Below are positions 11,764 to 27,566 of a DNA stretch of 64,000 nucleotides, piece by piece (the stretch's first letter is position 1; each line of letters opens with the position of its first letter). The notes under the pieces are model-generated. The model was not told the origin of the DNA, did not search any database, and worked only from the letters and a program-made list of their open reading frames with translations. The DNA is taken from the NCBI RefSeq assembly GCF_003762905.1, contig NZ_RJKS01000001.1:310001-374000 (forward strand), in the 5' to 3' direction. Made by a program: the position numbers and the translations under genes. The DNA comes from Curtobacterium sp. ZW137. GTDB lineage: Bacteria; Actinomycetota; Actinomycetes; Actinomycetales; Microbacteriaceae.

Positions 11764-13008
11764 TCAGGCCGTGCGGAACGCGACGACGGCGTTGTGGCCG
11801 CCGAAGCCGAACGAGTTGCTCACGGCGAGCAGGTCGCCCGCCGGGAGCTCGCGTGGCGAGGTCGCGACGTCCATCACGATCTCCGGGTCCTGCTCGGTGA
11901 GGTTGATCGTCGGCGGAGCGACGCGGTTGTGCAGCGCGAGGACGGTGAACGCCGCCTCGATCGCACCGGCACCACCGAGGAGGTGCCCGGTCGACGCCTT
12001 GGTGGCCGACACGACGACGGAGTCGAGGTGGTCGCCGAAGACGCGGCGCATCGCGTGGTACTCGGCGATGTCGCCGACCGGCGTCGACGTGGCGTGCGCG
12101 TTGACGTGCACGACGTCTTCGCGCGACGCACCGGCGTGCTCGAGCGCCATGAGCACCGCACGGGCAGCAGCGCTGCCCTCGGGGTCGGGGGCGGTGATGT
12201 GGAACGCGTCCGAGGTGATGCCGGCACCGGCGACCTCGGCGTAGATCTTGGCGCCGCGGGCTTCCGCGTGCTCCTTCGTCTCGAGGATCAGCGCAGCAGC
12301 GCCGTCCGCGAGCACGAAGCCGTCACGCGTGACGTCGTACGGACGCGAGGCGGTCTCGGGGGAGTCGTTGCGGCGCGACAGGGCCTGCATCGCGGCGAAC
12401 GACGCGAGGGGCATCGGGTGCAGCGCGGCTTCGGCGCCACCGGCGATGACGATGTCGGCTTCACCGGTCGCGACGTGGCGGTACGCCTCGGCGAGGGACT
12501 CGGTGGAGGACGCGCACGCCGAGAGGTAGGTGCGGGCGCCACCACGGGCGCCGAACTCCATCTCGATGGCGGCGGCGGGGCCGTTCGCCATGAGCATCGG
12601 GACCGTCATCGGCAGGACGCGGCGCGGGCCCTTCTCGCGCAGGGTGTCCCAGGCGTCGAGCAGCGTGTTCACGCCGCCGATGCCGGTCGCCCAGTCGACG
12701 ATGAGGCGCTCGGGCACGACGGTCTCGTTGTCGATGCCCGCGTCGGCCCATGCTTCACGCGCGGCGATGAGCGAGAGCTGCGACGACGGGTCGAAGCGCT
12801 TGGTCTCGGGGCGGGTGAGCTGGTCGGTGATGAAGCGGCGCGCCTGCCCGGCGAACTCGACGGGGATGTTGAGTTCGGCGTAGCGCGGGTCTTCGAGCCT
12901 GGTGATCCCGGACTTGCCCTCGAGCAAGGCGTCCCAGGTCTCCGAGGCAGTCGCGGCGAGAGGGGTGATCGCACCGATCCCGGTGACGACGACGGTCTTG
13001 TTGGTCAT
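11764..13008 (-). CDS. fabF: Beta-ketoacyl-[acyl-carrier-protein] synthase II
   Basis: About 414-residue condensing enzyme elongating acyl-ACP with malonyl-ACP. The catalytic triad regions are visible: Cys in YLSACASSTESL, His in VNAHATSTPVGD and His in KASTGHLLGGAG; the C-terminal NSFGFGGHNA loop is intact. Last gene of the fab operon, 93 bp after acpP. Two starts are possible: 13008 (MTNKTVVVTGIG, as in most homologues) and 13038 (ten residues longer). A hairpin at 13042-13089 ends 3 bases before the upstream start, which argues for 13008. Confidence 0.95.
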   Translation of the reverse strand: MTNKTVVVTGIGAITPLAATASETWDALLEGKSGITRLEDPRYAELNIPVEFAGQARRFITDQLTRPETKRFDPSSQLSLIAAREAWADAGIDNETVVPERLIVDWATGIGGVNTLLDAWDTLREKGPRRVLPMTVPMLMANGPAAAIEMEFGARGGARTYLSACASSTESLAEAYRHVATGEADIVIAGGAEAALHPMPLASFAAMQALSRRNDSPETASRPYDVTRDGFVLADGAAALILETKEHAEARGAKIYAEVAGAGITSDAFHITAPDPEGSAAARAVLMALEHAGASREDVVHVNAHATSTPVGDIAEYHAMRRVFGDHLDSVVVSATKASTGHLLGGAGAIEAAFTVLALHNRVAPPTINLTEQDPEIVMDVATSPRELPAGDLLAVSNSFGFGGHNAVVAFRTA

Positions 13009-13041
13009 GGAACGACTTGTTTCTGCTGAGGTGGACATGAC

Positions 13042-13089
13042 GAGCGCCGCGGCCCGTGACCGGAAGGGTCGAGCCGGACCACGGCGCTC
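13042..13089 (-). promoter_or_regulatory. Intercistronic hairpin between acpP and fabF
   Basis: On the minus-strand RNA the arms (13089-13076 and 13055-13042) form 14 continuous pairs including two G-U. The mismatches at DNA level are both compatible with wobble pairing, which suggests a selected RNA structure. It may stabilise the abundant acpP message or reduce read-through into fabF. Confidence 0.55.
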
Positions 13090-13101
13090 AGGAAGTTCGT
13101 G

Positions 13102-13350
13102 TCAGGCCTGGGCCTTGACGATGAAGTCGACGGCGTCACCGACGGTCTTGAGGTTCTTGACCTCTTCGTCCGGGATCTTCACGTCGAACTTCTCTTCGGC
13201 GTTGACGACGATGGTCATCATCGAGATGGAGTCGATGTCGAGGTCGTCCGTGAACGACTTGTCCGACTGCACCGTGTCGGTGGCGATGCCGGTCTCGTCG
13301 TTGATGAGCTCGGCCAGGCCGGCGAGGACTTCTTCGTTGGACAGGGCCAT
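13102..13350 (-). CDS. acpP: Acyl carrier protein
   Basis: 82-residue acidic carrier protein of type II fatty acid synthesis. The phosphopantetheine attachment serine is Ser41 in DDLDIDSISMM. AAGGAG lies 8 bases before the ATG. It sits between fabH and fabF as in other actinobacteria and is flanked by hairpins on both sides, perhaps giving it a separate, more stable transcript. Confidence 0.97.
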   Translation of the reverse strand: MALSNEEVLAGLAELINDETGIATDTVQSDKSFTDDLDIDSISMMTIVVNAEEKFDVKIPDEEVKNLKTVGDAVDFIVKAQA

Positions 13351-13397
13351 GATGGTGTCTCCTTGAGGGGGGTGTCGTTTGACCGTGGACCAGCCTA

Positions 13398-13420
13398 GGG
13401 CACGGGGTGGTCCCGTGCCC
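13398..13420. promoter_or_regulatory. Hairpin between fabH and acpP
   Basis: Perfect 9-bp stem GGGCACGGG / CCCGTGCCC with loop GTGGT, about 50 bp before the acpP start. No U-tract follows on either strand; a processing or attenuation site is more likely than a full terminator. Confidence 0.5.
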
Positions 13421-13481
13421 GCAGCCTGGCGGGACTGTGGAAAGTCTTGCTGCGCTCCGGTGTCCCGGAGCACCGGGCGTC

Positions 13482-14516
13482 CTACGGGAGGACGACCACC
13501 TGGGCGCCGAACACGAGTCCGGCGCCGAACCCGATCTGCAGGGCGAGGCCGCCCGACAGCTCCGGGTGCTCGTCGAGCAGGCGGTGGGTGGCGAGCGGGA
13601 TGCTCGCGGCGGAGGTGTTGCCGGTGGTCTTGATGTCGCGGGCGATCACCACGGACTCGGGGATGCCGAGCTGCTTGGCGAACTCGTCGATGATGCGGAT
13701 GTTCGCCTGGTGGGGCACGAACGCGGCGAGCTGGTCGGGGCGGACGCCCGCGGTGTCCAGCGCTTCTCGGGCGACCTTGACCATCTCCCAGACGGCCCAG
13801 CGGAACACGGTCTGACCGGCCTGCCGTATCGTCGGCCGCGCGGCCCCCGCTTCCCACTCGTTGAAGGTGGCGGTCATGCCGATCGCGTCCCACTTGGAGC
13901 CGTCGGAGCCCCAGATGGTCGGCGCGATGCCGGGGAAGTCGCTCGGGCCGACGATCGCGGCGCCGGCGCCGTCGCCGAGCAGGAACGAGATCGAGCGGTC
14001 GGTCGGGTCGACGATGTCGCTGAGCTTCTCGGCCCCGACGACGAGCACGTGGTCGGCGATGCCGGACTTCACGAACGAGTCGGCCTGGGCGATGCCGTAG
14101 GCGTACCCGGCACACGCGGCGCTGATGTCGTACGCCGCCGCGGGGGCGGCGCCGATGCGCTCGGCGAGGAGCGACGCCATCGACGGGGTGGCCACGGTGT
14201 GCGTGACGGTGCTGACGAGCACGACGCCGATCTGGTCGGGCGTGATGCCGGCCTTGGCGATGGCCTCGAGCGAGGCGGCCTCGGCGAGGTCGACCGCTTC
14301 GACGTCGGCACCGGCGCGCATCCGGGTGACGATCCCGGTGCGCTGGCGGATCCACTCGTCGGAGGAGTCGATCGGGCCGACGAGGTCGTCGTTCGGCACG
14401 GTGTTCTCGCCGCGGGCGGCGCCGAGCGCGAGGATGCGGCTGAACTCGTGGCCGCGGCGCTGCGCGAGGACGGGTCGAGCTGCGTCGGCTGCGGTGGGGG
14501 TGGTGCTGTCGGTCAT
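13482..14516 (-). CDS. fabH: Beta-ketoacyl-[acyl-carrier-protein] synthase III
   Basis: 344-residue initiating condensing enzyme. Catalytic Cys in DISAACAGYAYG, His in FVPHQANIRI and Asn in TTGNTSAASIP are all present. It catalyses the first condensation of an acyl-CoA primer with malonyl-ACP and so helps set straight versus branched chains. The ATG overlaps the fabD stop (ATGA), giving translational coupling. Confidence 0.96.
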   Translation of the reverse strand: MTDSTTPTAADAARPVLAQRRGHEFSRILALGAARGENTVPNDDLVGPIDSSDEWIRQRTGIVTRMRAGADVEAVDLAEAASLEAIAKAGITPDQIGVVLVSTVTHTVATPSMASLLAERIGAAPAAAYDISAACAGYAYGIAQADSFVKSGIADHVLVVGAEKLSDIVDPTDRSISFLLGDGAGAAIVGPSDFPGIAPTIWGSDGSKWDAIGMTATFNEWEAGAARPTIRQAGQTVFRWAVWEMVKVAREALDTAGVRPDQLAAFVPHQANIRIIDEFAKQLGIPESVVIARDIKTTGNTSAASIPLATHRLLDEHPELSGGLALQIGFGAGLVFGAQVVVLP

Positions 14517-15442
14517 GCGGATGCCTCTGCGGTGTTCAGGAGCTCGATCGCGGCCGGCAGGTCCTCGGGGGACTTGACCGCGACGGTGGGCGTGCCCCGG
14601 AGGCCGCGCTTGGCGAGCCCCACGAGGGCGCCGGCGGGGGCGAGCTCGATGATGCCGGTGACCCCTGCCTGCTGGAAGGACTCCATCACGGAGTCCCAGT
14701 GCACGGGGTTCGCGATCTGGGCGACCATGAGGTCGACGAACCGGCGGCCGTCGTCGACGCGGGAGCCGTCCGCGTTGGTCCAGATCGGGAGCGTCGGGTC
14801 GGTGACGGCGGTCGCGGCGGCCACCGGGGCGACGCGCTCGACGGCGGGGGCCATGTACCGGGTGTGGAACGCACCGGCCACCGCGAGGGGGATCACGCGG
14901 GCCTTGGCCGGCGGGTTCCCGGCGAGGGCCGCGATCGCTGCGGCAGCGCCGGCGACGACGGTCTGACCGCCGCCGTTGTGGTTGGCGGCCACGAGCCCGT
15001 TGGCTTCGAGTGCCTGCGCGACCTCGTCCGGGTCGCCGCCGAGGACGGCTGCCATCGAGGTGGGCTCGAGGGCCGCGGCGTCGGCCATCGCCCGGCCGCG
15101 CTCGGCGACCAGTGCGACGGCGTCGGCCGGTGTGAGGATCCCGGCGACCGCGGCGGCGGTGAACTCCCCGACGGAGTGGCCGGCGACGCCACCGACGAGG
15201 GCGCGACGGCCGTCGGCGAGGAGGGCGTCCGCGGTGATGATGCCCGCGGCGACGATGAGCGGCTGGGCGAGCGCGGTGTCCTTGATGGTGTCCGCGTCGG
15301 ACTCGGTGCCGTGCAGCGCCAGGTCGACGCCGATCGCCTCGGACCACTGCCCGACACGGTCACGGACGGCGGCGTCCTCGAGCCACGGGGCGAGGAAGCC
15401 TGGGGTCTGGGAGCCCTGTCCGGGCGCGACGACGACGATCAC
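14513..15442 (-). CDS. fabD: Malonyl-CoA:ACP transacylase
   Basis: About 309-residue acyltransferase loading malonyl groups onto AcpP. GQGSQ near the N-terminus, the nucleophile motif GHSVGEF and the later NHNGGGQTVV segment are typical. GTG at 15442 (IVVVAPGQGSQ) is chosen because AGGA precedes it and it matches the family start; an upstream GTG at 15493 would add 17 unlikely residues. It follows fasR by about 100 bp. Confidence 0.93.
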   Translation of the reverse strand: MIVVVAPGQGSQTPGFLAPWLEDAAVRDRVGQWSEAIGVDLALHGTESDADTIKDTALAQPLIVAAGIITADALLADGRRALVGGVAGHSVGEFTAAAVAGILTPADAVALVAERGRAMADAAALEPTSMAAVLGGDPDEVAQALEANGLVAANHNGGGQTVVAGAAAAIAALAGNPPAKARVIPLAVAGAFHTRYMAPAVERVAPVAAATAVTDPTLPIWTNADGSRVDDGRRFVDLMVAQIANPVHWDSVMESFQQAGVTGIIELAPAGALVGLAKRGLRGTPTVAVKSPEDLPAAIELLNTAEASA

Positions 15443-15548
15443 CGGACAATCCTGTCTGCCGTCGGGCGTGCGGCCCGTGTGGACTCCCGACACGAATCCG
15501 CGCGAGACATTGTGCGACCCCTACCGACGGCGGTCCCGCGGTCGCCCG

Positions 15549-16775
15549 TCACCGTCGTCCGACGCGCCGGCGGCTGGAGGCCGATTCGGACATCGCACCG
15601 AGGATCAGCGCGGACTGCACGATCAGGGCGTCACGGGCGTGGGTGGCGTCCCAGCCGATGATGTCCGCCACACGGCGCAGGCGGTACCGCACGGTGTTCG
15701 GGTGCACGAAGAGCTCGCGCGCCGTCGCCTCGAGCGAACGACCGGTGTCGAGGTAGCACCAGAGCGTCTGCAGGAGCTCGGTGGACTGGTCCTTCAGCGG
15801 CACGTAGATGCGCTGCACGAGCGCGGACCGGGCCAGGGGGTCACCGGCGAGGGCCCGCTCGGGCAGCAGGTCGTCCGCGAGCGCGGGACGGGGAGCACCG
15901 CGCCAGGCCCGTGCGACGGCGAACCCGGCGAGGGCGGCCTTCGCGGAGGTGGAGGCGTCGACGACCCCGGGGACCTCGTTGCCGAGGACCAGGTGGCCCT
16001 CGCCGAACATCGGCTCGAGGGCCTGCGCGATCGCCATGAACGAGACCGGCTCCTCGCCTTCCGGGACGTCGTCCCGCGGGGTGGAGCGGCCGATGACGAC
16101 CACGAGGCGCGAGCCCTGGACCCCGATGAGCACGTCCGCGTCCATGTGGCGGGCGGAGCGCCGGACCTGGTCGACCTCGAGCTGCTTCGGTGCGGTGCCG
16201 ACGAGCACCGCCACCTCGCCGTGGCCGTGCCAGCCGAGCGCCGCGATGCGGGAGGGGAGCTCGTCGTCGTACTCGCCGGAGAGGATCGAGTCGACCACGA
16301 GCGCTTCGAGCCGGGCGTCCCAGAGCCCGCGCGCCTCGGCGGCACGGGCGTAGACGTCGGCGGCCGCGAAGGCGATGTCCCGGGAGTACTTGAGGATCGC
16401 CTCCTGCAGCATCTCGTCGTCCTTGGCGCGTTCCTCCACCACGGTCACGACCACGCGGATGAGCTGCAGGGTCTGCTGCAGGCTCACCGAGCGCAGGAGT
16501 TCCCGCGGCGCGGAGCCGAACACGTCGGCGGCCGCGATCCACGGTGTCGACGCGCTGCCCTCGAGCCAGGAGATGAACGAGGTGATGCCGGCCTGGGCGA
16601 CCATGCCGACCGCGGACCGACGCCCAGGGGGCATCTCGCTGTACCAGGGGAGCGTGTCCTCGAGCCGCTTGATGGTGGCGGTCGAGAGTTCGCCCGACAC
16701 CTGCCGGAGCCAGGAGAGCGCCCGTTCACGGTCGTTCTCCCGGCCCACGGCGGGGTCGGTGCGGGGTGTCGTCAC
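15549..16775 (-). CDS. fasR: PucR/CdaR-type transcriptional regulator of fatty acid synthesis
   Basis: 408-residue regulator with the C-terminal PucR-type helix-turn-helix (GRSLEATARELFVHPNTVRY) and an extended N-terminal sensory region. In Streptomyces and Mycobacterium the FasR activator occupies this exact place, upstream of fabD, and controls the fab genes; the assignment rests on fold plus synteny. GTG start, 7 bp after the aceE stop, so it is probably cotranscribed with aceE as well as driving fabDHF. Confidence 0.88.
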   Translation of the reverse strand: MTTPRTDPAVGRENDRERALSWLRQVSGELSTATIKRLEDTLPWYSEMPPGRRSAVGMVAQAGITSFISWLEGSASTPWIAAADVFGSAPRELLRSVSLQQTLQLIRVVVTVVEERAKDDEMLQEAILKYSRDIAFAAADVYARAAEARGLWDARLEALVVDSILSGEYDDELPSRIAALGWHGHGEVAVLVGTAPKQLEVDQVRRSARHMDADVLIGVQGSRLVVVIGRSTPRDDVPEGEEPVSFMAIAQALEPMFGEGHLVLGNEVPGVVDASTSAKAALAGFAVARAWRGAPRPALADDLLPERALAGDPLARSALVQRIYVPLKDQSTELLQTLWCYLDTGRSLEATARELFVHPNTVRYRLRRVADIIGWDATHARDALIVQSALILGAMSESASSRRRVGRR

Positions 16776-16782
16776 CGGGTGA

Positions 16783-19527
16783 TCAGCTCTCGCCGCCGGC
16801 GCTGCCCGTGGTGCCGGCGGTCACGTCGTGCAGGCGGTACTTGTCGATCGCCTGCTGGACGAGCGCCCCGTCGATCTTGCCCTGGCGGGCGAGCTGCTGC
16901 AGCGTCCGCACGACGACCGAGGGGCCGTCGATGTGGAAGAAGCGGCGGGCGGCCGGACGGGTGTCCGAGAAGCCGAAGCCGTCGGCGCCGAGCGTGGCGT
17001 AGTCGGTCGGCACGAACGGGCGGATCTGCTCCTGGACCTGGTGCATGAAGTCGCTGACGGCGACGACCGGGCCCTCGGTGGCGAGCAGACGCTCGGTGAC
17101 GTACGGCGTGCGGGGCTGCTCGTTCGGGTTGAGGAACGCGTGCTGCTCCGCGGCGAGACCGTCACGGTACAGCTCACCCCAGCTCGTGACGCTCCACACG
17201 TCGGCGGAGACGCCCCAGTCCTCGGCGAGGAGCTGCTGCGCCTCGAGGATCCACGGCACCGCGACACCGGACGCGAGCAGCTGGGCCTTGGGGCCGTCGT
17301 GCTCGCTGCCCTTGAGCAGGTACATGCCCTTGACGATGCCGTCCACGTCGACGCCCTCGGGCTCGACGGGCTGCACGATCGGCTCGTTGTAGACCGTCAG
17401 GTAGTACATGACGTTCGGGTCGTCGTGCTTCGGCGAGCCGTCCTCGTTCGTGCCGTACATCCGGTCGAGGCCGGACTGGACGATGTGGCCGATCTCGTAG
17501 CCGTAGGCCGGGTCGTAGGACACGACCGCGGGGTTCGACGCCGCGAGGAGCAGCGAGTGGCCGTCGGCGTGCTGCAGGCCCTCACCGGTCAGGGTCGTGC
17601 GACCGGCGGTGGCGCCGATCATGAAGCCGCGTGTCATCTGGTCACCGGCGGCCCAGATCGCGTCACCGGTGCGCTGGAACCCGAACATCGAGTAGAAGAC
17701 GTAGACCGGGATGAGCGGCTCGCCCTGCGTCGAGTACGAGGTGCCGACGGCGGTGAACGCCGCGAGGGCGCCCGCCTCGTTGATGCCGACGTGGATGATC
17801 TGGCCCTGCGGGCTCTCCTTGTAGGCCAGGAGGAGCTCACGGTCGACCGACGTGTAGTGCTGGCCGTTCGGGTTGTAGATCTTCGCCGTCGGGAAGTACG
17901 CGTCCATGCCGAACGTGCGCGCTTCGTCCGGGATGATCGGGACCACGCGGTCACCGAAGTCCGGGGAGCGGAGCAGGTCCTTCAGCAGACGGGCGAACGC
18001 CATGGTGGTGGCGATCTCCTGCTTGCCGGAGCCCTTCTTGACGACCTGGTACTTCGCGTCGTCGGGGAGCGTGATGGACGTGTACTTGGTGCGACGCTCC
18101 GGCACGTACCCGCCGAGCGCGTGACGGCGCTCGTGCATGTACTGGATCGCCTCGTCGTCGTTGCCGGGGTGGTAGTACGGCGGCGTGTAGGGGTTCTCCT
18201 CGAGCTGCGCGTCGGAGATCGGGATGCGCATCTCGTCGCGGAACTGCTTGAGGTTGTCGAGCGTGAGCTTCTTCATCTGGTGCGTCGCGTTGCGCCCCTC
18301 GAAGCTCGGGCCGAGGCCGTAGCCCTTGACCGTCTTCGCGAGGATGACGGTCGGCTGGCCCTTGTGCTCGGTCGCCGCCTTGAACGCCGCGTAGACCTTG
18401 CGGTAGTCGTGGCCACCGCGCTTGAGGTTCCAGACCTGGTCGTCGCTGTAGCCGTCGATCAGCTGGAGTGCCTTCGGGTCGCGCCCGAAGAAGTTCTCCC
18501 GGACGTAGGCGCCGTTCTCGGCCTTGTACGTCTGGTAGTCACCGTCGGGGGTGACGTTCATCAGGTTGAGGAGCGCGCCCTCGGTGTCGCGGGCGAGCAG
18601 GTCGTCCCACTCGCGGCCCCAGATCACCTTGATGACGTTCCAGCCGGCACCGCGGAAGTAGCTCTCGAGCTCCTGGATGATCTTGCCGTTGCCGCGCACC
18701 GGGCCGTCGAGACGCTGCAGGTTGCAGTTGATCACGAAGTTCAGGTTGTCGAGGCCGTCGTTCGCAGCGACCTGGAGCTGGCCGCGGGACTCGACCTCGT
18801 CCATCTCGCCGTCGCCGAGGAAGGCCCAGACCTGCTGCTCCGAAGCGTCCTTGATGCCGCGGTTGGACAGGTACTTGGCCTGCTGCGCCTGGTAGATCGC
18901 GTTGATCGGGCCGATGCCCATCGACACGGTCGGGAACTGCCAGAAGTGCGGCATGAGCCGGGGGTGCGGGTAGGAGGACAGACCGCCACCGGTGTGCGAC
19001 TTCTCCTGACGGAACCCGTCGAGCTGGTTCTCGTCGAGGCGACCCTCCATGTAGGCGCGGGCGTACATGCCGGGGGAGGCGTGGCCCTGGAAGAACACCT
19101 GGTCGCCGCCGGACGGGTGGTCCTGCGCGCGGAAGAAGTGGTTGTAGCCGACCTCGTACAGGGCGGCGCTCGACGCGTACGTCGAGATGTGCCCACCCAC
19201 CGAGATGCCGGGGCGCTGCGCGCGGTGCACCGTGATGGCCGCGTTCCAGCGGATCCACCGGCGGTAGCGGCGCTCGAGCTCCTCGTCGCCGGGGAACTCC
19301 GGCTCGTTCTCCGGCGCGATCGTGTTGACGTAGTCCGTCGTCGGGACCATCGGCACGCCGAGGTGCAGTTCCTTGGACCGCTTGAGCAGGCTGAGCATGA
19401 TCTCGCGGGCACGCTCGTGCCCGTGTGCCGCGACCAGTCCGTCGAGGGACTCACGCCATTCGGCGGTCTCCTCCGGGTCCTGGTCCTCGTGCCCTGCGCT
19501 GTACGGGTCCTGGTCGTTCACCGTCAC
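16783..19527 (-). CDS. aceE: Pyruvate dehydrogenase E1 component, homodimeric type
   Basis: About 914-residue thiamine-diphosphate enzyme decarboxylating pyruvate in the PDH complex. The ThDP motif GDGEMDE starts the classical GDG-to-NCN segment; [13 protein letters not shown] and KTVKGYGLG are typical of AceE. Two GTG starts are close together (19527 and 19521); GAGG six bases before 19527 favours the former. It heads the aceE-fasR-fab series and is divergent from ahpE, an order also seen in Mycobacterium tuberculosis. Confidence 0.96.
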
Positions 19528-20396: not shown

Positions 20397-21425
20397 GTGC
20401 ACCACATCGACACGGCGACGCGACCCGACGTGGTCGGCTCCACCGGCTACGCCCCGTACCCGGTGACGACCGACCCCGCCCCGTGGTCGCTGACGCGCGC
20501 CGTGGTCGACACCGCCGTCGGACCGGTCGTGGTGCACGCCCGACGGGGCCCGCGACCGCTGCTCCTGCTGCACGGGGTCGCCGGCTCGTGGACGACGTGG
20601 ACGCCCCTGCTCCGTGCCGCGGACGGCTTCGACGGCCGCGGACTCGTGCTGGTCGACCTGCCCGGCTGGGGTTCGTCGCCGGCCCCCGCACGACGGCTCG
20701 ACGTCGACGACGCCGTCGCTGTGCTCCGATCGGTCCTCGATTCCGTCGGAGTCGACACGGTCGACGTCCTCGGGCACTCGATGGGCGCGTTCATCGGCAT
20801 GCACCTCGCCGTGGCCGCACCGGAACGGGTCCGCTCGACGACCCTGGTCTCCGGGACGACGTTCGCGGCGATCGACGCCGCCCGGCACCCGGTGCGCGGG
20901 GTCCTGACCCTGCCGTCCTTCGCACTGCTCCGCGCCGGACTCGCCGTCACCCGGAGCGCTGCGGTCCCGCTGCTCCGCGGCCTCGCGCGCGTCGGCCTCC
21001 TCCGCCTGCTCGCCGCGCCGGTGTTCACCCACGTGCGCGCACTCGACCGCAGCGTGCTCGACGCCTTCGTCGAGGAACTGCGGCCCGACGGCTTCCTCGG
21101 TGCGGCACGGACCGGCGCCGGGTACGACACCGACCGGTGGCGGAGCATCACCTGCCCGGTCACGGCGATCGCCGGCCGCGACGACGTCTTCGCGCGGGTG
21201 CGGGACCTCGACGACCTCGCACGGGTGGTGCCGCAGACCCGCACGGTGCTGCTCGACGACTGCGGCCACTTCGCGCACGTGGAGCACCCGGCTGCGGTGC
21301 TGCTGGCCCTCGGCGACGACACGGTCGATGGTGACCGCGCGCTCGGTGACGACGGCGGGGTCAGTGGTACTGCGGTGGCCAGTCGAACGCCGGCGGGCGG
21401 TGCGGCACCTCGCCGATCGTCGTGA
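20397..21425 (+). CDS. Alpha/beta hydrolase
   Basis: 342-residue alpha/beta hydrolase. LLLLHGVAGSWTTW carries the HG oxyanion loop, GHSMGAF the nucleophile serine, GRDDVFARV the acid region and DDCGHFAHVEHP the catalytic histidine. Substrate unknown. GTG has a strong GGAGG five bases upstream. The last 65 bp overlap the 3' end of the convergent lipoprotein gene, and the tail (GVSGTAVASRTPAGGAAPRR) is low-complexity. Confidence 0.87.
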   Translation: MHHIDTATRPDVVGSTGYAPYPVTTDPAPWSLTRAVVDTAVGPVVVHARRGPRPLLLLHGVAGSWTTWTPLLRAADGFDGRGLVLVDLPGWGSSPAPARRLDVDDAVAVLRSVLDSVGVDTVDVLGHSMGAFIGMHLAVAAPERVRSTTLVSGTTFAAIDAARHPVRGVLTLPSFALLRAGLAVTRSAAVPLLRGLARVGLLRLLAAPVFTHVRALDRSVLDAFVEELRPDGFLGAARTGAGYDTDRWRSITCPVTAIAGRDDVFARVRDLDDLARVVPQTRTVLLDDCGHFAHVEHPAAVLLALGDDTVDGDRALGDDGGVSGTAVASRTPAGGAAPRRSS

Positions 21426-21903
21426 CGACGAGGTCGACCTGCTCGAGGTCGCGCAGCTCGATCGACCGCGGGTTCGCGTAGTACCGGCGCCCGTCGACCC
21501 ACACCGTGAGGTCTCCGTGCAGCCCGCCGACGTGCGCGGGGCCGAGGGAGACGTCCCACTCGTCGAAGAACTGCCCGAGGGTGAAGGTCCGGCGCTCGGG
21601 GGACTCGACGTGCACGATGCCCGAGGTGTCGTGCGTGTGGATCTCCGCCGCGAACCGCTGTTTCGCCGAGTGCCCGATGTTGCCGGGGACGACGACGGGT
21701 TCGCCTCCGTCAGTGATCGTCAGGTGCGTGTGGATGTGCTCCGCGAGGCGCTGACCCCACACGTCGTGCAGCCCCGCGGCTTCGGCTCGTGCGGCGAGGT
21801 CCGTCGGCCTCGGCCACGGCGGCGGTCCCGGGGGCGTGGCGCACCCGCTCGCGAGCACCACGACGGCCAGCCCCACCGCCGCTGCCCGCATCGCTCGTCG
21901 CAC
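21361..21903 (-). CDS. Putative lipoprotein with HIHTH motif
   Basis: About 180-residue secreted lipoprotein: basic start VRRAMR, hydrophobic core, lipobox LASGC. The mature part has HIHTHLTI and EIHTHDTSGIVH, two histidine-rich beta-like segments, and VWVDGRRYYANPRSIEL. The repeated H-x-H pattern could bind a metal, but this is inference; no named family is recognised. Start could be GTG 21903 or ATG 21891. Convergent 3' overlap with the hydrolase gene. Confidence 0.7.
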   Translation of the reverse strand: MRRAMRAAAVGLAVVVLASGCATPPGPPPWPRPTDLAARAEAAGLHDVWGQRLAEHIHTHLTITDGGEPVVVPGNIGHSAKQRFAAEIHTHDTSGIVHVESPERRTFTLGQFFDEWDVSLGPAHVGGLHGDLTVWVDGRRYYANPRSIELRDLEQVDLVVTTIGEVPHRPPAFDWPPQYH

Positions 21904-22085: not shown

Positions 22086-23672
22086 TCAGGCGTGGACGGG
22101 GAAAGCGGCGGCGACGCGGGAACGGACCTCGGCGAGGACCGCGGCGCGCATGGTCGGGGAGAAGAGGGAGTGGTCCCCGCCGGGGACGTGCACCAGGGCG
22201 ACCGACCCGCCCGGGCCGCCCGGAGCCCACCGCCGGAGCGCGGTGCGGCCGCCGAGGCGGTGGAAGAGCTCGGCGTCCTCGTCCGCCGTGATCAGCACGA
22301 CGTCGGTGCCGTTCGTCACGAGGGGCCGGACGTGCTCGACGACGCCTCCGGCACGGTCCCGGCGGGCGATGCGGGCGCGGAGCTCCTCCGGCACGAGTGC
22401 GTTGTACCGCTCGCGGAGCCACAGCCGTGCCGGCGAGGGGGAGTCCACCGCGCGGACGGCGTCGCTGTAGCTCCCCGGCACGGCCGGACGGCGCCGGTAG
22501 TCGTTCGGGCTGATCTGGACGACGAGCCTCGGTGTCTCGGCACGGGCACGCCCCGCCACCCATGCGCCGGCGCACATCCCGACGAGGGCGAGCCGGTCCG
22601 CCGGGACGCCCAGCGCGGCCACGATCTCGGACTGGTCGTCGATCCACTCCTGCGCGAACAGGTGGTCGCGTTCCTGGCCGCAGACCACGGAGCTCTCGCC
22701 GGTACCGCGGCGGTCGACCCGGACGACCCGCGCACCCTCCCGAGCGAGTGCCCGGGCGAGTGTGACCTGGTAGTCGGTCGCCCCGACGCGGTGCTCGGCG
22801 GCCCCGTTGTGCAGCACGACCACGGGCCCGTCGTCCGCCGGCCGCGCGGGAGCGGTCTCGACGGCGAAGAGGGCCTCCGGTCCGAGGTGCACGATCCGCT
22901 CGGCGACGCCGTGGTCGAGGTCGACGACGGTGTCCAGCACGGGCGGGCGCGTCGGGACCGTGGCAGCCGGGACGTGCTCGTCGATCCAGGACACGACCCG
23001 ATCGACGGCCTCCGACGGGATGCGCGCGTGGATGCTCGTGCCGTCGAGGAGTTCGGCGGTCCCGGGGACCTCGACGGGCTGCACCTCGCCGAGGGCCTTC
23101 GGCGCCCGGCCCCCCGGACGGACGAACACGGCGGTCGCGACGGTCCGCGGTGCGAACCGGAGCGCCGACAGCACCGCCGCCTCCGCCGGGTCGACGTCGA
23201 TGCCGATGAGGCTCTCGACGTCGTCGACCACCCGCGACGGGCCGATCGTGATGGACGCGAGGGCACGCTGCCGACGGAGCCACGCCCGCCCGGACTCCGG
23301 TGCGTCCCAGAGCACGAGGGCGTCCTCGTCCCGGGCCGCCGCGGCAGCGACGAGGGCCGATGAGGCGAGCCCCACGAAGACGATCCGGGACACACCGGTC
23401 GTGCGCAGCACGGCCGCGGCCCGCACGGCGGACCGGACCTGCGCGTCGGGGTCGGCATCGGGACCGGAGTCCCCACGTCCGGACGGGTCGTAGCGCACCG
23501 AGGCCACGCCACGAGCCTCCAGGCGGTCTGCCAGCAGGCGGAGCGTGCGGTACGCGATCACGCCCTCCTGTCCGAGTGGCGGACAGATCACGACACCGGC
23601 GCGTGCCGACGGCGGCACCTGCACGGCGGCGCGGATCGCCGGCGAACCGGACCAGCCGTGGTGCGTGGTCAC
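22086..23672 (-). CDS. Tandem alpha/beta-hydrolase protein of the carrier-protein cluster
   Basis: 528-residue protein with two alpha/beta-hydrolase-like halves. The first (about 1-240) has VVICPPLGQEGV and a degenerate elbow GLASSA. The second has VVLHNGAAEHRVG, the nucleophile-elbow sequence GMCAGAW (cysteine where serine is usual), TADEDAEL as acid region and GGDHSLFSP with the histidine. The organisation recalls tandem hydrolases accompanying other carrier-protein clusters. Overlap by 4 bases with the aminoacyl-CP ligase places it in the pathway, plausibly releasing or transferring the carrier-bound product; that is inference. Confidence 0.82.
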   Translation of the reverse strand: MTTHHGWSGSPAIRAAVQVPPSARAGVVICPPLGQEGVIAYRTLRLLADRLEARGVASVRYDPSGRGDSGPDADPDAQVRSAVRAAAVLRTTGVSRIVFVGLASSALVAAAAARDEDALVLWDAPESGRAWLRRQRALASITIGPSRVVDDVESLIGIDVDPAEAAVLSALRFAPRTVATAVFVRPGGRAPKALGEVQPVEVPGTAELLDGTSIHARIPSEAVDRVVSWIDEHVPAATVPTRPPVLDTVVDLDHGVAERIVHLGPEALFAVETAPARPADDGPVVVLHNGAAEHRVGATDYQVTLARALAREGARVVRVDRRGTGESSVVCGQERDHLFAQEWIDDQSEIVAALGVPADRLALVGMCAGAWVAGRARAETPRLVVQISPNDYRRRPAVPGSYSDAVRAVDSPSPARLWLRERYNALVPEELRARIARRDRAGGVVEHVRPLVTNGTDVVLITADEDAELFHRLGGRTALRRWAPGGPGGSVALVHVPGGDHSLFSPTMRAAVLAEVRSRVAAAFPVHA

Positions 23673-24619
23673 AGTGCCAGCGCGCGACGGACGTCCGTCG
23701 GCCAGGCCGCCGGGTCGGTGCCGTGCGCGGCGAACAGGGCGATCGTGATGCGCTCCAGGCCGAAGGCGAGGCACGCGCTGTGCGCGACCTCGCCGTCCGC
23801 CGTGCGGATCGCGAACGAGCTTCCGAAGTGGTCCTCGTGCAGGTTCGCCGAGCTGATCGCCGTCGGCTCGCCGGCATCGCCGTAGACCGGCGTGACGAAC
23901 TCGAACTTCAGCGACTGCTCGACCTGGTTCCGCGCCAGGATCTTGCCCACCCGGCCGAAGAACGGATCGTTCGCGGGGACGACGTCGATCTCGAGCCCGA
24001 AGCCACCGAGGAGGTCCCGCATCACCGGGATCCGGCCGTCACGGTGCTGCTTCGCCGAGGCGGGCGTGCCGATGTGCACGAACTCGTGCATGTGGAAGGC
24101 CTGCAGGCGCATCGGGTCGAGGGAGGGCTCGCGGCGGAAGGAGTCGCCGACGATGTCGAAGGTCCGGCCCTCCTGCGGGACCGTCCCCGTGACGAGGCCG
24201 TAGACGGGGTGGCAGACGGCCGGCGCGAGCATCAGGTCGGCCGGTTCGAGGAACGACTCCCAGCGCTCGCCGCGTTCCCGCGCCGCGAGGAGCTCGCGGT
24301 GCTTCCGGTCGTCGCCCGTGAACCCGGAGATGGACGCGGCCAGGTCGGGGAACGACGCGATGTAGTCGGTGCGTTCGAACGCGGCGAGGGGCTCGACGGG
24401 CGGGAACCGGAGGACCTCCGCGTCGAGGTCGGCCATCGAGCGGACGGCCGCGGCGTCGACGGCGGTGTACACGCGGTCGAACACGCCCGTGCGGCCGTAG
24501 AGGCCGGGGGAGCCGAGGTCGATGAGGACGCTGTCGGTGAGGAGGCGCGTGCGGAGGGCGGCGCGGGCGCGGTCGAGCGGGGACGTGTCGATCGTGGTGG
24601 TCGGGTCCGTGATGGTCAC
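23669..24619 (-). CDS. Amino acid:[carrier protein] ligase (class II aaRS-like)
   Basis: 316-residue homologue of the catalytic domain of atypical seryl-tRNA synthetases, lacking a tRNA-binding arm. Class II motif 2 is FRREP...AFHMHEF, motif 3 is LAFGLERI. Cys136 (PAVCHP), Glu179 (HMHEF) and Cys283 (HSACLAF) fall where the zinc ligands lie in the characterised Bradyrhizobium and Agrobacterium enzymes, which activate glycine or alanine and attach it to the phosphopantetheine of a small carrier protein. GTG start overlaps the dehydrogenase stop; the probable partner carrier is 25842-26135. Confidence 0.9.
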   Translation of the reverse strand: MTITDPTTTIDTSPLDRARAALRTRLLTDSVLIDLGSPGLYGRTGVFDRVYTAVDAAAVRSMADLDAEVLRFPPVEPLAAFERTDYIASFPDLAASISGFTGDDRKHRELLAARERGERWESFLEPADLMLAPAVCHPVYGLVTGTVPQEGRTFDIVGDSFRREPSLDPMRLQAFHMHEFVHIGTPASAKQHRDGRIPVMRDLLGGFGLEIDVVPANDPFFGRVGKILARNQVEQSLKFEFVTPVYGDAGEPTAISSANLHEDHFGSSFAIRTADGEVAHSACLAFGLERITIALFAAHGTDPAAWPTDVRRALAL

Positions 24620-25845
24620 AGGATCACTCCGGTCATGATGGCCAGTCCGGCGTCGTTCTGGAGGAGACGGTCGTTGCTCACCATGACGGCGGCCCCGTGG
24701 GCGTCCCGGAGGTGTCGGGCGATGCTCATCGGACCGGTCGCCGCGTACCCGGCGATCCCGACGATGCGCATCGCCTTCGTGACGAGGTCGGTGACCCGTT
24801 CGGAGGCCGCGATCTTCAACGCGTTCGCGGCCAGTGCGTGGGCACTCGACTCCAGGGCCTCCGGGTCGTCCGCGATGCCGTCGTACCGCTCGGCGGCGTG
24901 CCGGACGGTGTCCGCGAGGGCCTGCAGGTCGACGAGGAGCTCCGCGAGCCGGAGCGCTCCCGGCGGGGTGCTCCCGACCGAGGCGCGTGCCTGCTTCCGG
25001 ACCGCGGCACGTGCACGCTCGGCGGCCGACGCGGCGATGCCGAGCCAGACGGATGCCCAGAGCACGTGCGAGACGGGGAGGACGGTGTGCGCGGAGATCA
25101 TCGCGTAGTCGTCCCGGAACACCGCGTCCACGGTGGTGGAGGCGTCGAGGACCCAGCCGTTGCTGCACGTGCCGCGGAGGCCCATCGTGTCCCATGTCGA
25201 CGTCTGCGACAGCACGGTGTCCGCCGTCCAGCACACGACGAGGCGCTGGTCGGACGCCGGGGCATCGGGATCGCGGCGGGCGGTCACGAAGACGGCGTCG
25301 GCCTCGGTCGCGTAGGAGATGACCGGGGCGTCCTTGCGGAGGCGGATGCGTCCGGTCTCGCCGTCCGGCCCGTCGGGCTCGTTCGCTTCGGGCTCGATCG
25401 CGCACGTGGACCGGCGGGCATCGCCGCCGACACCCTTCTCGGTCGTCGCGGACGCCACGAGCGCGCCGTTCCGCACGGCCTCGGTCATCGCCAGGACCCC
25501 GGCGCCGTCACCGCCGTGCCGCCACAGGGCCATCGCCTGACCGTGGTGCATCGCGAACACCATGCCGGTCGCCGCACACGCACGGCCGAGTTCGGTCGCG
25601 ATGGCGGAGAGCTCCGACACCGTCGCACCCTCCCCGCCGAGGTCGGCGGGGACCGCTGCGGCGAGGAGGCCGTACTCCCGCATCGCGGCGATCGCCTCAC
25701 GCGGGGGCCGTGCGTCCCGGTCGACCTCGTCCGCGAACTGCGCGCCGATCGCGGCGACCGCGGCTGCGCGTTCGGCGAAGCGGTCGCGGGTCGTGGCATC
25801 GACCGTGTCAGCGGTGCGGTGGGCGTTCGTCTGCAGGAGCGTCAC
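24616..25845 (-). CDS. Acyl-CoA dehydrogenase-like flavoprotein
   Basis: 409-residue protein of the acyl-CoA dehydrogenase fold: N-terminal helical domain with LLAAAVPADLGGEGA, central beta domain, C-terminal helical bundle ending GIAGYAATGPMSIARHLRDA. The usual CoA-dehydrogenase C-terminal signature is altered (ASNDR-like VMVSNDRLLQ). Between a carrier protein and its ligase it probably acts on the carrier-bound aminoacyl group, for example by alpha,beta-oxidation; this is inference from context. GTG start overlaps the carrier protein stop by 4 bases. Confidence 0.87.
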   Translation of the reverse strand: MTLLQTNAHRTADTVDATTRDRFAERAAAVAAIGAQFADEVDRDARPPREAIAAMREYGLLAAAVPADLGGEGATVSELSAIATELGRACAATGMVFAMHHGQAMALWRHGGDGAGVLAMTEAVRNGALVASATTEKGVGGDARRSTCAIEPEANEPDGPDGETGRIRLRKDAPVISYATEADAVFVTARRDPDAPASDQRLVVCWTADTVLSQTSTWDTMGLRGTCSNGWVLDASTTVDAVFRDDYAMISAHTVLPVSHVLWASVWLGIAASAAERARAAVRKQARASVGSTPPGALRLAELLVDLQALADTVRHAAERYDGIADDPEALESSAHALAANALKIAASERVTDLVTKAMRIVGIAGYAATGPMSIARHLRDAHGAAVMVSNDRLLQNDAGLAIMTGVIL

Positions 25846-26135
25846 GAGGCCGTCGCCAGGGCCGCGGCGGCGACGATCGACTCGACCGAGCCGAAGGTCG
25901 CCCGGTTCAGGACCGCGTCCGGGAACTCCGCGTCGAGCTCGTTCTCGACCGCGAGCATCACGTTCACCGTGGCGTGCGACGTCAGCCCGAGCGCGTACAG
26001 ATCGGCGATCGGTGCCACGTCCCACGCGTCGACGGTGAGCCGTCCGTGGTCAGCGAGGGCCTGCCGCACGGCCTGTTCCGCCGCGGGGTCAGCGAGGGCG
26101 ACGGTGGTCGCTCCGGTGTTCGGGTCCTGGTGCAT
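25842..26135 (-). CDS. Small carrier protein (aminoacyl carrier)
   Basis: 97-residue acyl/peptidyl-carrier-like protein. The attachment site is Ser53 in DLYALGLTSHATVNVMLAVE, the GLTSH variant typical of carriers served by aa:CP ligases rather than the DSL of AcpP. First gene of the four-gene overlapping series. ATG has TATCGT seven bases upstream on its strand and no Shine-Dalgarno, so the message is probably leaderless. Confidence 0.88.
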   Translation of the reverse strand: MHQDPNTGATTVALADPAAEQAVRQALADHGRLTVDAWDVAPIADLYALGLTSHATVNVMLAVENELDAEFPDAVLNRATFGSVESIVAAAALATAS

Positions 26136-26142
26136 GCGAGCC

Positions 26143-26206
26143 ACGATAAGGAGCGCTCGGCGCCGGGAAACCGCCGTGCGGGTGCGGGATCCCGCAGGAC
26201 GGTTTC
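26143..26206 (-). promoter_or_regulatory. Promoter and palindromic operator of the carrier-protein operon
   Basis: -10 box TATCGT (26148-26143 on the minus strand). Upstream, GAAACCGCCGTGCGGG (26167-26182) and CCCGCAGGACGGTTTC (26191-26206) form an inverted repeat matching at 14 of 16 positions, enclosing an inner TGCGGGATCCCGCA palindrome. It abuts the -35 zone, a position suited to regulator binding. Confidence 0.6.
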
Positions 26207-26247
26207 GGAACTGAACGCGGGTACAGCCTGCAGCGTTGTAACGCCCG

Positions 26248-26625
26248 TCACCGCTCCGAGAGAGCCACCGCGGTCGCCATCGCAAGCCCCCGTTCGTGGG
26301 ACAGCGAGACAGATACCGTCGTGATCCCGAGGTCCGCGGCGAGCGCCTCCGCGGCCCCGGACAGGACCACGGTCGGGGCACCGTGCTCGTCGAGGACGAT
26401 GGCGACGTCGTGCGGCCCGATCGCGTCCGTGCGGGTCGGACGGAGCAGCTTGATCACCGCTTCCTTGCCGGCGAACCGGGCGGCGAGGCGGTCGGGTGCG
26501 TCGCCGGCGTCCGCACGCTCGCGTTCGGTGAACACGCGGGCGAGGTAGCGCTCGCCGTGCGCCTGGATGCCGGCGGTGACGTCCTCGACGGCGGCGAGGT
26601 CGCAGCCGGTGCGGATGGCGGTCAT
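26248..26625 (-). CDS. acpS: Holo-[acyl-carrier-protein] synthase
   Basis: 125-residue phosphopantetheinyl transferase. TGCDLAAVEDV holds the metal-binding aspartate, RFAGKEAVIK the F-x-x-KEA-x-x-K signature, and VSLSHERGLAMATAV the C-terminal histidine segment. It converts apo carrier proteins to holo form. It may be the only AcpS of the cell or dedicated to the adjacent carrier; the window cannot tell. The ATG overlaps the LysR stop (ATGA) but also has its own TACGCT six bases upstream. Confidence 0.93.
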   Translation of the reverse strand: MTAIRTGCDLAAVEDVTAGIQAHGERYLARVFTERERADAGDAPDRLAARFAGKEAVIKLLRPTRTDAIGPHDVAIVLDEHGAPTVVLSGAAEALAADLGITTVSVSLSHERGLAMATAVALSER

Positions 26626-27566
26626 GACGGAAGCGTAGGGCCGTCGTGATCGGGCGTCGGGGCTTCGTTCGTGCTGCCCGCCCCGCGCCGGAGCGTCCGG
26701 GCCACCAGGCTCCTGAGCCACGCGTGTCCGCGGTCCGTGGTGAACCGGCGGTGCCACGTCAGCACGACGGCGACCGACGGCAGGTCGACCGGCGGCGTGA
26801 ACACGACGGTGTCCCCGGCGGCGGCTGCCCGGGTCGCCACGGACGCGGGGACGACCACCACGGCGTCGGTCGCGCGCACGATCTCGATCGCGGCGCTCGT
26901 CGACGCCACCGATGCGATCACCGAACGGGTGTCACCGGTGGCGCGGTCCACCCGATCGCGGAGGCGTCCGCGGCGGGACACGACGACGTGCGGTGCCGCC
27001 AGCCAAGCGGTGAGGGTGATCTCGTCGTCGCCGAACAGCGGGTGGCCACGGCGAGCCAGCCCGACGAGGGCGTCGTCGGTGACCGTCTCGTGGTCGATGG
27101 CCGGCGCCGTGGGGACCTCCGACCCGATCTCGAGGTCGACGACACCCCGCTGCAGGTCCGTCGTGTCGTCGGGCGCCTCGCCGAGGAAGCGCAGGACGAC
27201 CCCGGGGGCGTCCGCGGCGACCCGCTGCACGAGCGCCGGGGCGAGGACGGTGGCGAGGGCGTCGTGGGCGCGGATCGTGAAGGTCCGCTCCAACGTCCCG
27301 AGGTCGAGGCCGGTCTCCGGGGCGAGGACGTCGCGGCTCCGGAGGACGAGCGAGCGGACCTCCGCCCGCATGGCCAGCGCACGGGGCGTCGGGCGCATCT
27401 CCCGCCCGGCGCGGACCAGGATCTCGTCGCCGGTGGCCCGTCGGATGCGGCCGAGGGTGCGGCTCATCGCGGGTGCCGAGAGGTGCAGTCGGTCCGCTGC
27501 CCCGGTGACGCTCTCCGCTTCGAGCAAGGCGTCCAACGCGGTGAGGAGGTTCAGGTCGAGTTGCAC
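26622..27566 (-). CDS. LysR-family transcriptional regulator
   Basis: 314-residue LysR regulator: N-terminal winged HTH (DLNLLTALDALLEAESVTGAAD, APAMSRTLGRIRRATGD), then the substrate-binding domain. GTG at 27566 is the conserved LysR start and has TAGATT seven bases upstream, a leaderless arrangement. Likely targets are the divergent gene pair at 27674 (site TGCAC-N13-GTGCA between them) and perhaps the carrier-protein operon downstream. Confidence 0.9.
   Translation of the reverse strand: MQLDLNLLTALDALLEAESVTGAADRLHLSAPAMSRTLGRIRRATGDEILVRAGREMRPTPRALAMRAEVRSLVLRSRDVLAPETGLDLGTLERTFTIRAHDALATVLAPALVQRVAADAPGVVLRFLGEAPDDTTDLQRGVVDLEIGSEVPTAPAIDHETVTDDALVGLARRGHPLFGDDEITLTAWLAAPHVVVSRRGRLRDRVDRATGDTRSVIASVASTSAAIEIVRATDAVVVVPASVATRAAAAGDTVVFTPPVDLPSVAVVLTWHRRFTTDRGHAWLRSLVARTLRRGAGSTNEAPTPDHDGPTLPS

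Follow-up and report, generated by a model that had tools for sequence, protein, structure and literature searches.

A conserved amino acid:[carrier protein] ligase cassette of Curtobacterium and its possible role in the oxidation and transfer of a carrier-bound amino acid

What is the fate of an amino acid that is loaded onto a carrier protein in a neighbourhood without a nonribosomal peptide synthetase (NRPS)? This question is raised by a cassette of five genes on the minus strand of a 64-kb stretch of DNA (72% GC; “the window” below) in contig C1 of a 3.9 Mb Curtobacterium genome. Following a gene for a LysR-family regulator, the genes are, in order of transcription, those for an AcpS-type phosphopantetheinyl transferase (PPTase), a carrier protein, a flavoprotein with the acyl-CoA dehydrogenase (ACAD) fold, an amino acid:[carrier protein] ligase and a tandem alpha/beta hydrolase. 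The ligase family is already known; the surrounding cassette is a conserved pathway of unassigned product, and a literature search of CC-licensed PubMed Central papers yielded no paper on that product. The initial annotation of this locus proposed that an amino acid is loaded, oxidised on the carrier and released or transferred by the hydrolase. This sequence of events still is the likeliest reading, although the oxidation has turned out to be optional. Our preferred interpretation, to which we assign a probability of about 0.45, is that the cassette oxidises a carrier-bound amino acid, probably at nitrogen, and then transfers the acyl group; it builds on the genes, their families, their conservation and their active-site residues, with the substrate, every reaction and the acceptor predicted from these.

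A ligase and its carrier outside the NRPS context

The ligase (316 aa; 23669-24619) scores 379.6 bits against the NCBIfam model NF005479 (cut-off 357), and it matches the solved structures of Bll0957 (PDB 4h2w/3mey; E 3.2e-71). Its sole Pfam match, PF00587, lies slightly under the cut-off and it aligns only to positions 307-503 of the 518-position seryl-tRNA synthetase (SerRS) model NF002120. Judged from these alignments, it is an atypical SerRS catalytic core without the tRNA-binding domain, as is Bll0957 of Bradyrhizobium, which belongs to the same family and likewise has an adjoining carrier gene. The residues C136, E179 and C283, which had already been pointed out as conserved in this synthetase-like ligase, are indeed invariant (10 of 10 aligned sequences) and form what we take to be a metal site. 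Studied relatives of the ligase use glycine or alanine. Bll0957 has reportedly been studied as an isolated ligase/carrier pair; to our knowledge the flavoprotein, the Cys hydrolase and the pathway have not been worked out there. The biological role of the Bll0957-type ligases is called unknown in the part of a 2022 review available to us (PMC9437257).

The carrier protein (97 aa; 25842-26135) scores 82.5 bits against NF005480 (cut-off 72), has no Pfam match at E 0.001 and is missed by the PF00550 profile. Its phosphopantetheine serine is residue 53, within the motif GLTSH, as originally noted. The AcpS-type PPTase (125 aa; 26248-26625; PF01648, over the cut-off of TIGR00556), one of three PF01648 matches in the genome, would install the phosphopantetheine arm on Ser53, after which the ligase would use ATP to activate a small amino acid, glycine or alanine by analogy, and load it onto the carrier as a thioester. 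Family membership makes aminoacylation of the carrier by the ligase very likely. The 4-base overlaps reported earlier between the carrier and flavoprotein, flavoprotein and ligase, and ligase and hydrolase genes are all present; the AcpS and carrier genes do not overlap and are separated by 112 bases.

The description of the neighbourhood as free of NRPS can be extended, since the condensation domain PF00668 had 0 matches in the whole genome in a search that did find it in 4 of 14 control genomes. Two adenylation-carrier proteins are encoded elsewhere. One (L002, C1:886623-889811) exceeds the cut-off of TIGR02353 and is a Pls/PosA-family single-module NRPS part; ~3.6 kb separate its carrier domain from a further PPTase gene (C1:891883-892167). 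The other (L001, C2:27312-30518) is an adenylation-carrier-thioesterase protein. With both present, the loaded carrier might conceivably feed an NRPS-like enzyme at a distance. However, both candidates have adenylation and carrier domains of their own; one is 0.55 Mb away, near its own PPTase gene, and the other is on a different contig. With no condensation domain found in the genome either, we regard this route as very improbable.

Some more distant relatives of the ligase were encountered as well. A divergent relative (~32% identity) on a Streptomyces clavuligerus plasmid (L112, 7839-10023) has a PPTase gene and one for a small hypothetical protein beside it, and a condensation-domain protein and a phytanoyl-CoA dioxygenase are encoded opposite; this is perhaps a different pathway with the same kind of ligase. 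Partial ligase-like matches (~31% identity over half of the query) occur on the small plasmids of the honeybee-associated Apilactobacillus kunkeei (6 records), and a Propionibacteriaceae metagenome-assembled genome (MAG) carries a second ligase copy directly downstream of the hydrolase (L061, 12637-13536). Viral contigs gave 6 pattern matches and 0 relatives of the ligase.

Conservation of the cassette

A genome scan gave 241 pattern matches, 210 of which are relatives of the ligase, and the best 80 loci were kept for locus counts. The gene caller misses genes in some loci and the presence counts, therefore, rest on six-frame searches with hidden Markov models (HMMs), which were built from Microbacteriaceae sequences. 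The carrier was found in 78 of the 80 loci, the flavoprotein in 75, AcpS in 74 and the hydrolase in 68; some genes are missing because the contig is short (L033, L059, L078), and the flavoprotein is absent from the flanks of L077, L094, L098, L100 and L104. The exact order AcpS-carrier-flavoprotein-ligase-hydrolase on one strand is kept in 49 of the 80 loci, 31 of them from Curtobacterium and 18 from Frigoribacterium, Frondihabitans, Leifsonia, Rhodoglobus, Salinibacterium, Propionibacteriaceae and several MAGs. The initial annotation, which would have fallen had surveys shown the genes to adjoin by chance only, withstands this test, and its view of the cassette as self-contained is supported. 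Ligase identity is 78-91% in the first 27 loci of the scan (Curtobacterium, one identified only as Microbacteriaceae), which places the window in this genus. The ligase occurs in 50 of the 66 genomes of the genus (48 over the cut-off), in 11 of 199 genomes of the family and in 10 of 396 of the phylum (4 over the cut-off). Within Curtobacterium the median dN/dS ranges from 0.23 for the ligase to 0.34 for the hydrolase (31-32 sequences per gene).

In 30 out of 32 Curtobacterium loci aceE- and fab-like (fabD) genes adjoin the cassette, and unrelated genes might thus have come to lie next to a fatty-acid synthesis cluster by chance. However, none of the 48 other loci has aceE or fabD in its flanks, yet 18 of these keep the exact five-gene order, and the core of the cassette recurs in Priestia. 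Chance adjacency is refuted by these observations.

The LysR-family regulator (26622-27566, minus strand; PF00126/PF03466), whose gene overlaps that of AcpS by 4 bases, fared differently. The initial annotation listed it, together with AcpS, just upstream of the other genes, but none of the 80 loci holds a relative at E<=1e-10. It was rejected as regulator or part of the cassette and, because it is not conserved beside it, should be considered a neighbour only. Downstream on the same strand are a small lipoprotein-like gene recognised by eye (21361-21888), which matches no Pfam family, and a fatty-acid synthesis and aceE-like cluster, also recognised by eye (11764-19527), the carrier of which was confirmed by PF00550.

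The flavoprotein and the nature of the oxidation

The flavoprotein (409 aa; 24616-25845), which is predicted to oxidise the amino acid on its carrier, was initially called acyl-CoA-dehydrogenase-like. This holds for its fold (PF02771/PF00441 matches) but not for its active site. Residues 389 and 259 correspond to what we take to be the catalytic Glu positions of the MCAD type and the IVD type, respectively. The former, a valine in the window, is V or I in 33 of 33 sequences and in 6 of 6 plasmid sequences, while the latter is S, A, C or T in these 39 aligned sequences, so that a Glu occurs at neither position in 39 out of 39. Since alignments with PDB structures end before the Glu column, this column was fixed with paralogues from the same genome, which has six PF00441 matches; four of these, including the flavoprotein itself, reached the HMM and were aligned. 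One of the three aligned paralogues, a dehydrogenase-like protein (L115) that served as control, has the Glu and two, including the closest paralogue of the flavoprotein, are without it. The sequences that have lost the Glu come from actinobacteria, Rhizobium, Azospirillum, Burkholderiales and Priestia. In addition, the flavoprotein falls under the cut-offs of all named dehydrogenase equivalogs (best Rv1679_FadE16, 96.5 vs. 600 bits), and among solved structures phmmer ranks the amine N-oxygenase KijD3 first (3m9v; E 2.2e-12). These features set it apart from the standard acyl-CoA dehydrogenases; a group D monooxygenase or N-oxygenase is a possible assignment.

A precedent for such an activity is ChmG from the chalkophomycin/hormaomycin pathways, a prolyl N-oxygenase acting on a carrier-bound substrate, which was recognised by its lost Glu (Met instead) and its KijD3-like fold, and which its authors, in the portion of the paper at hand, call the first flavin enzyme for the N-oxygenation of a substrate on a carrier (PMC11177257). 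As far as can be compared by its description there, ChmG resembles the flavoprotein of the window in its ACAD fold without the Glu, its likeness to KijD3 (24% identity for ChmG) and in the N-oxygenation, here a proposed one, of a carrier-tethered amino acid. It differs in that proline is loaded onto the carrier ChmI by an adenylation enzyme, ChmJ, and that pyrrole formation is left to a further flavoprotein, ChmH; moreover, KijD3 is a fold match for ChmG but the best match of our flavoprotein by phmmer only.

Two comparisons weigh against an N-oxygenase: whole-fold comparison slightly prefers dehydrogenases over KijD3 (Z difference 2.9), and profile comparison likewise places acyl-CoA dehydrogenases first. 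They leave room for a dehydrogenase after all, which would convert the tethered amino acid into an imine or an alpha,beta-dehydro amino acid with a base other than the usual Glu. There are precedents for this chemistry on carrier-bound amino compounds, at least in the excerpts accessible to us, i.e., CaeB1/ColB1 of the caerulomycin/collismycin pathways, with CaeB1 dehydrogenating a cysteinyl-carrier, and AzsF of the azaserine pathway, which acts on a hydrazinoacetyl-carrier. However, according to these same excerpts CaeB1 requires its Glu and the E372L variant is dead, while E372 is without a counterpart in the flavoprotein of the window. With neither the MCAD-type nor the IVD-type Glu in 39 out of 39 sequences, an N-oxygenase as top phmmer match, and glycine unable to give an alpha,beta-dehydro product, we consider a dehydrogenase less likely. 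Oxidation of the amino acid on the carrier, of whichever kind, is probable, and N-oxygenation in particular has a chance that we put just short of even. The flavoprotein would then oxidise the tethered amino acid most likely at nitrogen, to an N-hydroxy, oxime or nitroso group, acting as a two-component monooxygenase with reduced flavin supplied from elsewhere; the cassette contains no flavin reductase gene. Oxidation should be regarded as an optional step, since 5 of the 80 relatives have no flavoprotein in the flanks examined.

Transfer or release, and the question of the acceptor

The hydrolase (528 aa; 22086-23672; pLDDT of the predicted structure 91.2) is a predicted acyltransferase or thioesterase. 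Its initial assignment as the enzyme of release or transfer can be narrowed to its second domain, in which Cys367, Asp500 and His501 are invariant in 23 out of 23 sequences, with Cys as the nucleophile; the first domain is without a conserved nucleophile or centre. The Cys-Asp-His centre would be fitting for acyl transfer or release. The two halves resemble the exosortase A-associated hydrolases, the N-terminal one hydrolase 2 (TIGR03101) and the C-terminal one hydrolase 1 (TIGR03100), although they score far under the cut-offs of TIGR03100 and TIGR03101 (65.5 vs. 168.45 and 46.7 vs. 202.75) and, unlike in those proteins, are fused in one chain.

In other lineages further proteins are added to the cassette or take this place. 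The papain-like Cys family DUF1839 occurs in 23 of the 80 loci and a glycoside hydrolase of family 2 (GH2) in 22. A single locus, on a contig of 3.9 kb (L078), has neither hydrolase nor DUF1839, which suggests that these two can do the same job. Seventeen loci, mostly from Mycobacteriales together with a Kitasatospora and an acidobacterial record, have a split form with a GH2-like protein (~800 aa), DUF1839 and the carrier on one strand (in 16 of 17 also AcpS) and the flavoprotein and ligase on the opposite strand; the hydrolase is nearby in 12 of 17. The order AcpS-carrier-flavoprotein-ligase-DUF1839-GH2, without hydrolase, is found in five Rhodococcus loci, and carrier-flavoprotein-ligase-DUF1839-GH2 on the six Proteobacterial plasmids examined, with a hydrolase of ~600 aa after DUF1839-GH2 on those of Azospirillum and Mycetohabitans. 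On the Rhizobium gallicum plasmid (L107, 8506-15398) the cassette lies in a nitrogen-fixation region: it follows a nifHDKENX-fdxB run, from which it is separated by a single small gene whose annotation reads exopolysaccharide production repressor, and it precedes a gene for a PLP enzyme annotated as ACC deaminase.

In the collections searched, DUF1839 accompanies the ligase. Of the 59 plasmid records with DUF1839, 56 also appear in the list of 60 plasmids that bear the ligase, and one further (CP018229) has a ligase match too; CP071635 and CP104145 have none among the matches listed. A search over the 396 genomes of the phylum, including our own Curtobacterium genome, found DUF1839 in two others and not in our own; both belong to the 10 that bear the ligase, and DUF1839 lies within 3 kb of it (hypergeometric ~6e-4). 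A search of the own genome by itself also gave 0 matches, with no match in any control genome either. The Cys of the NCY motif occurs in all aligned DUF1839 sequences with a complete N-terminus. There is almost no literature on DUF1839, for which the literature search gave a single paper; the part of a review that we could consult (PMC10318531) gives its site as Cys-(Thr/Ser)-His and derives a possible glycan-processing role from genomic context.

In the proposed last step Cys367 of the hydrolase would take over the acyl group and pass it to an acceptor. This may be a surface-glycan sugar; with water or an amine in its place, a small molecule would be freed. The small modified amino acid or amide proposed initially is one of two live options, the sugar acceptor being the other in view of the glycosyltransferase neighbours and the GH2 in relatives. 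A Bac_transf-type sugar transferase occurs in 15 of the 80 loci and either this type or a GT4 glycosyltransferase in 25 (24 of the 48 non-Curtobacterium loci), while whole genomes contain only 0-6 Bac_transf matches each; these locus counts are biased, since seven added loci were picked after glycan genes had been noticed in some and the HMMs were built from the same loci. In an unbiased subset, 10 of the 11 ligase-positive family genomes (G105 left out), three (G041, G113, G179) have PF02397 at <=10 kb from the ligase, where copy number and genome size would lead one to expect ~0.08. A Bac_transf-type sugar transferase directly adjoins the ligase in three loci without flavoprotein (L098, L100, L104), and the ligase of a Tsukamurella plasmid, the gene table of which is incomplete and shows no annotated flavoprotein, is situated among glycosyltransferases inside a polysaccharide cluster. 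As far as the sources available to us go, BtrH (butirosin), Dlt (DltA) and AlmE/F/G likewise transfer amino acids or acyl groups from a carrier to a sugar or glycan; they are alike in logic only, as their ligases and transferases differ from those of the window.

Two observations weigh against a glycan as acceptor, i.e., the Curtobacterium copies lack glycan-gene neighbours, and the surroundings in Priestia suggest a soluble product. They fit a cassette that makes a free small molecule, with the hydrolase as a thioesterase releasing the oxidised amino acid, which would then leave the cell or be coupled to a second amino acid, for instance as an antimetabolite, without any glycan. Both N-oxygenase and dehydrogenase chemistry are compatible with this. 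On the Priestia megaterium plasmid (L111, 833-14656) the run AcpS-carrier-flavoprotein-ligase continues with genes for a DMT transporter, for an ATP-grasp protein in which an L-amino acid ligase domain scores under the cut-off (25 vs. 29.4), and for a PF00975 thioesterase, an alanine permease and an alanine racemase, with an annotated D-Ala-D-Ala ligase ~4.3 kb upstream; by its gene content this copy looks like one for a small soluble alanine-related product with possible self-protection genes. Three ATP-grasp-like genes, recognised by eye, also surround the ligase and carrier of a Microbacteriaceae locus in which the gene caller found no flavoprotein gene (L025, 8255-13664). On the other hand, in several other lineages the ligase has polysaccharide genes next to it, and GH2 and DUF1839 are present in 22-23 of the 80 loci and on the six Proteobacterial plasmids. 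The free small molecule is a possibility of about one in three, and the glycan acceptor, if marginally better placed across the family, is equally tentative and less probable for Curtobacterium itself.

The family of this ligase links ribosomal and non-ribosomal chemistry, and its conserved partners reduce the question of its role to which amino acid is loaded, whether it is N-oxygenated or dehydrogenated, and which acceptor receives it. DUF1839 gains a likely function as a transferase of the carrier system. If the flavoprotein is an N-oxygenase, ChmG, as presented in the text available to us, would no longer be the lone example. More speculatively, and with a rather small chance of being correct, flavin N-oxygenases acting on carrier-held glycine or alanine could be widespread and overlooked, with Cys transferases, either the tandem hydrolase or DUF1839, decorating surface glycans with N-hydroxy- or oximino-acyl groups.

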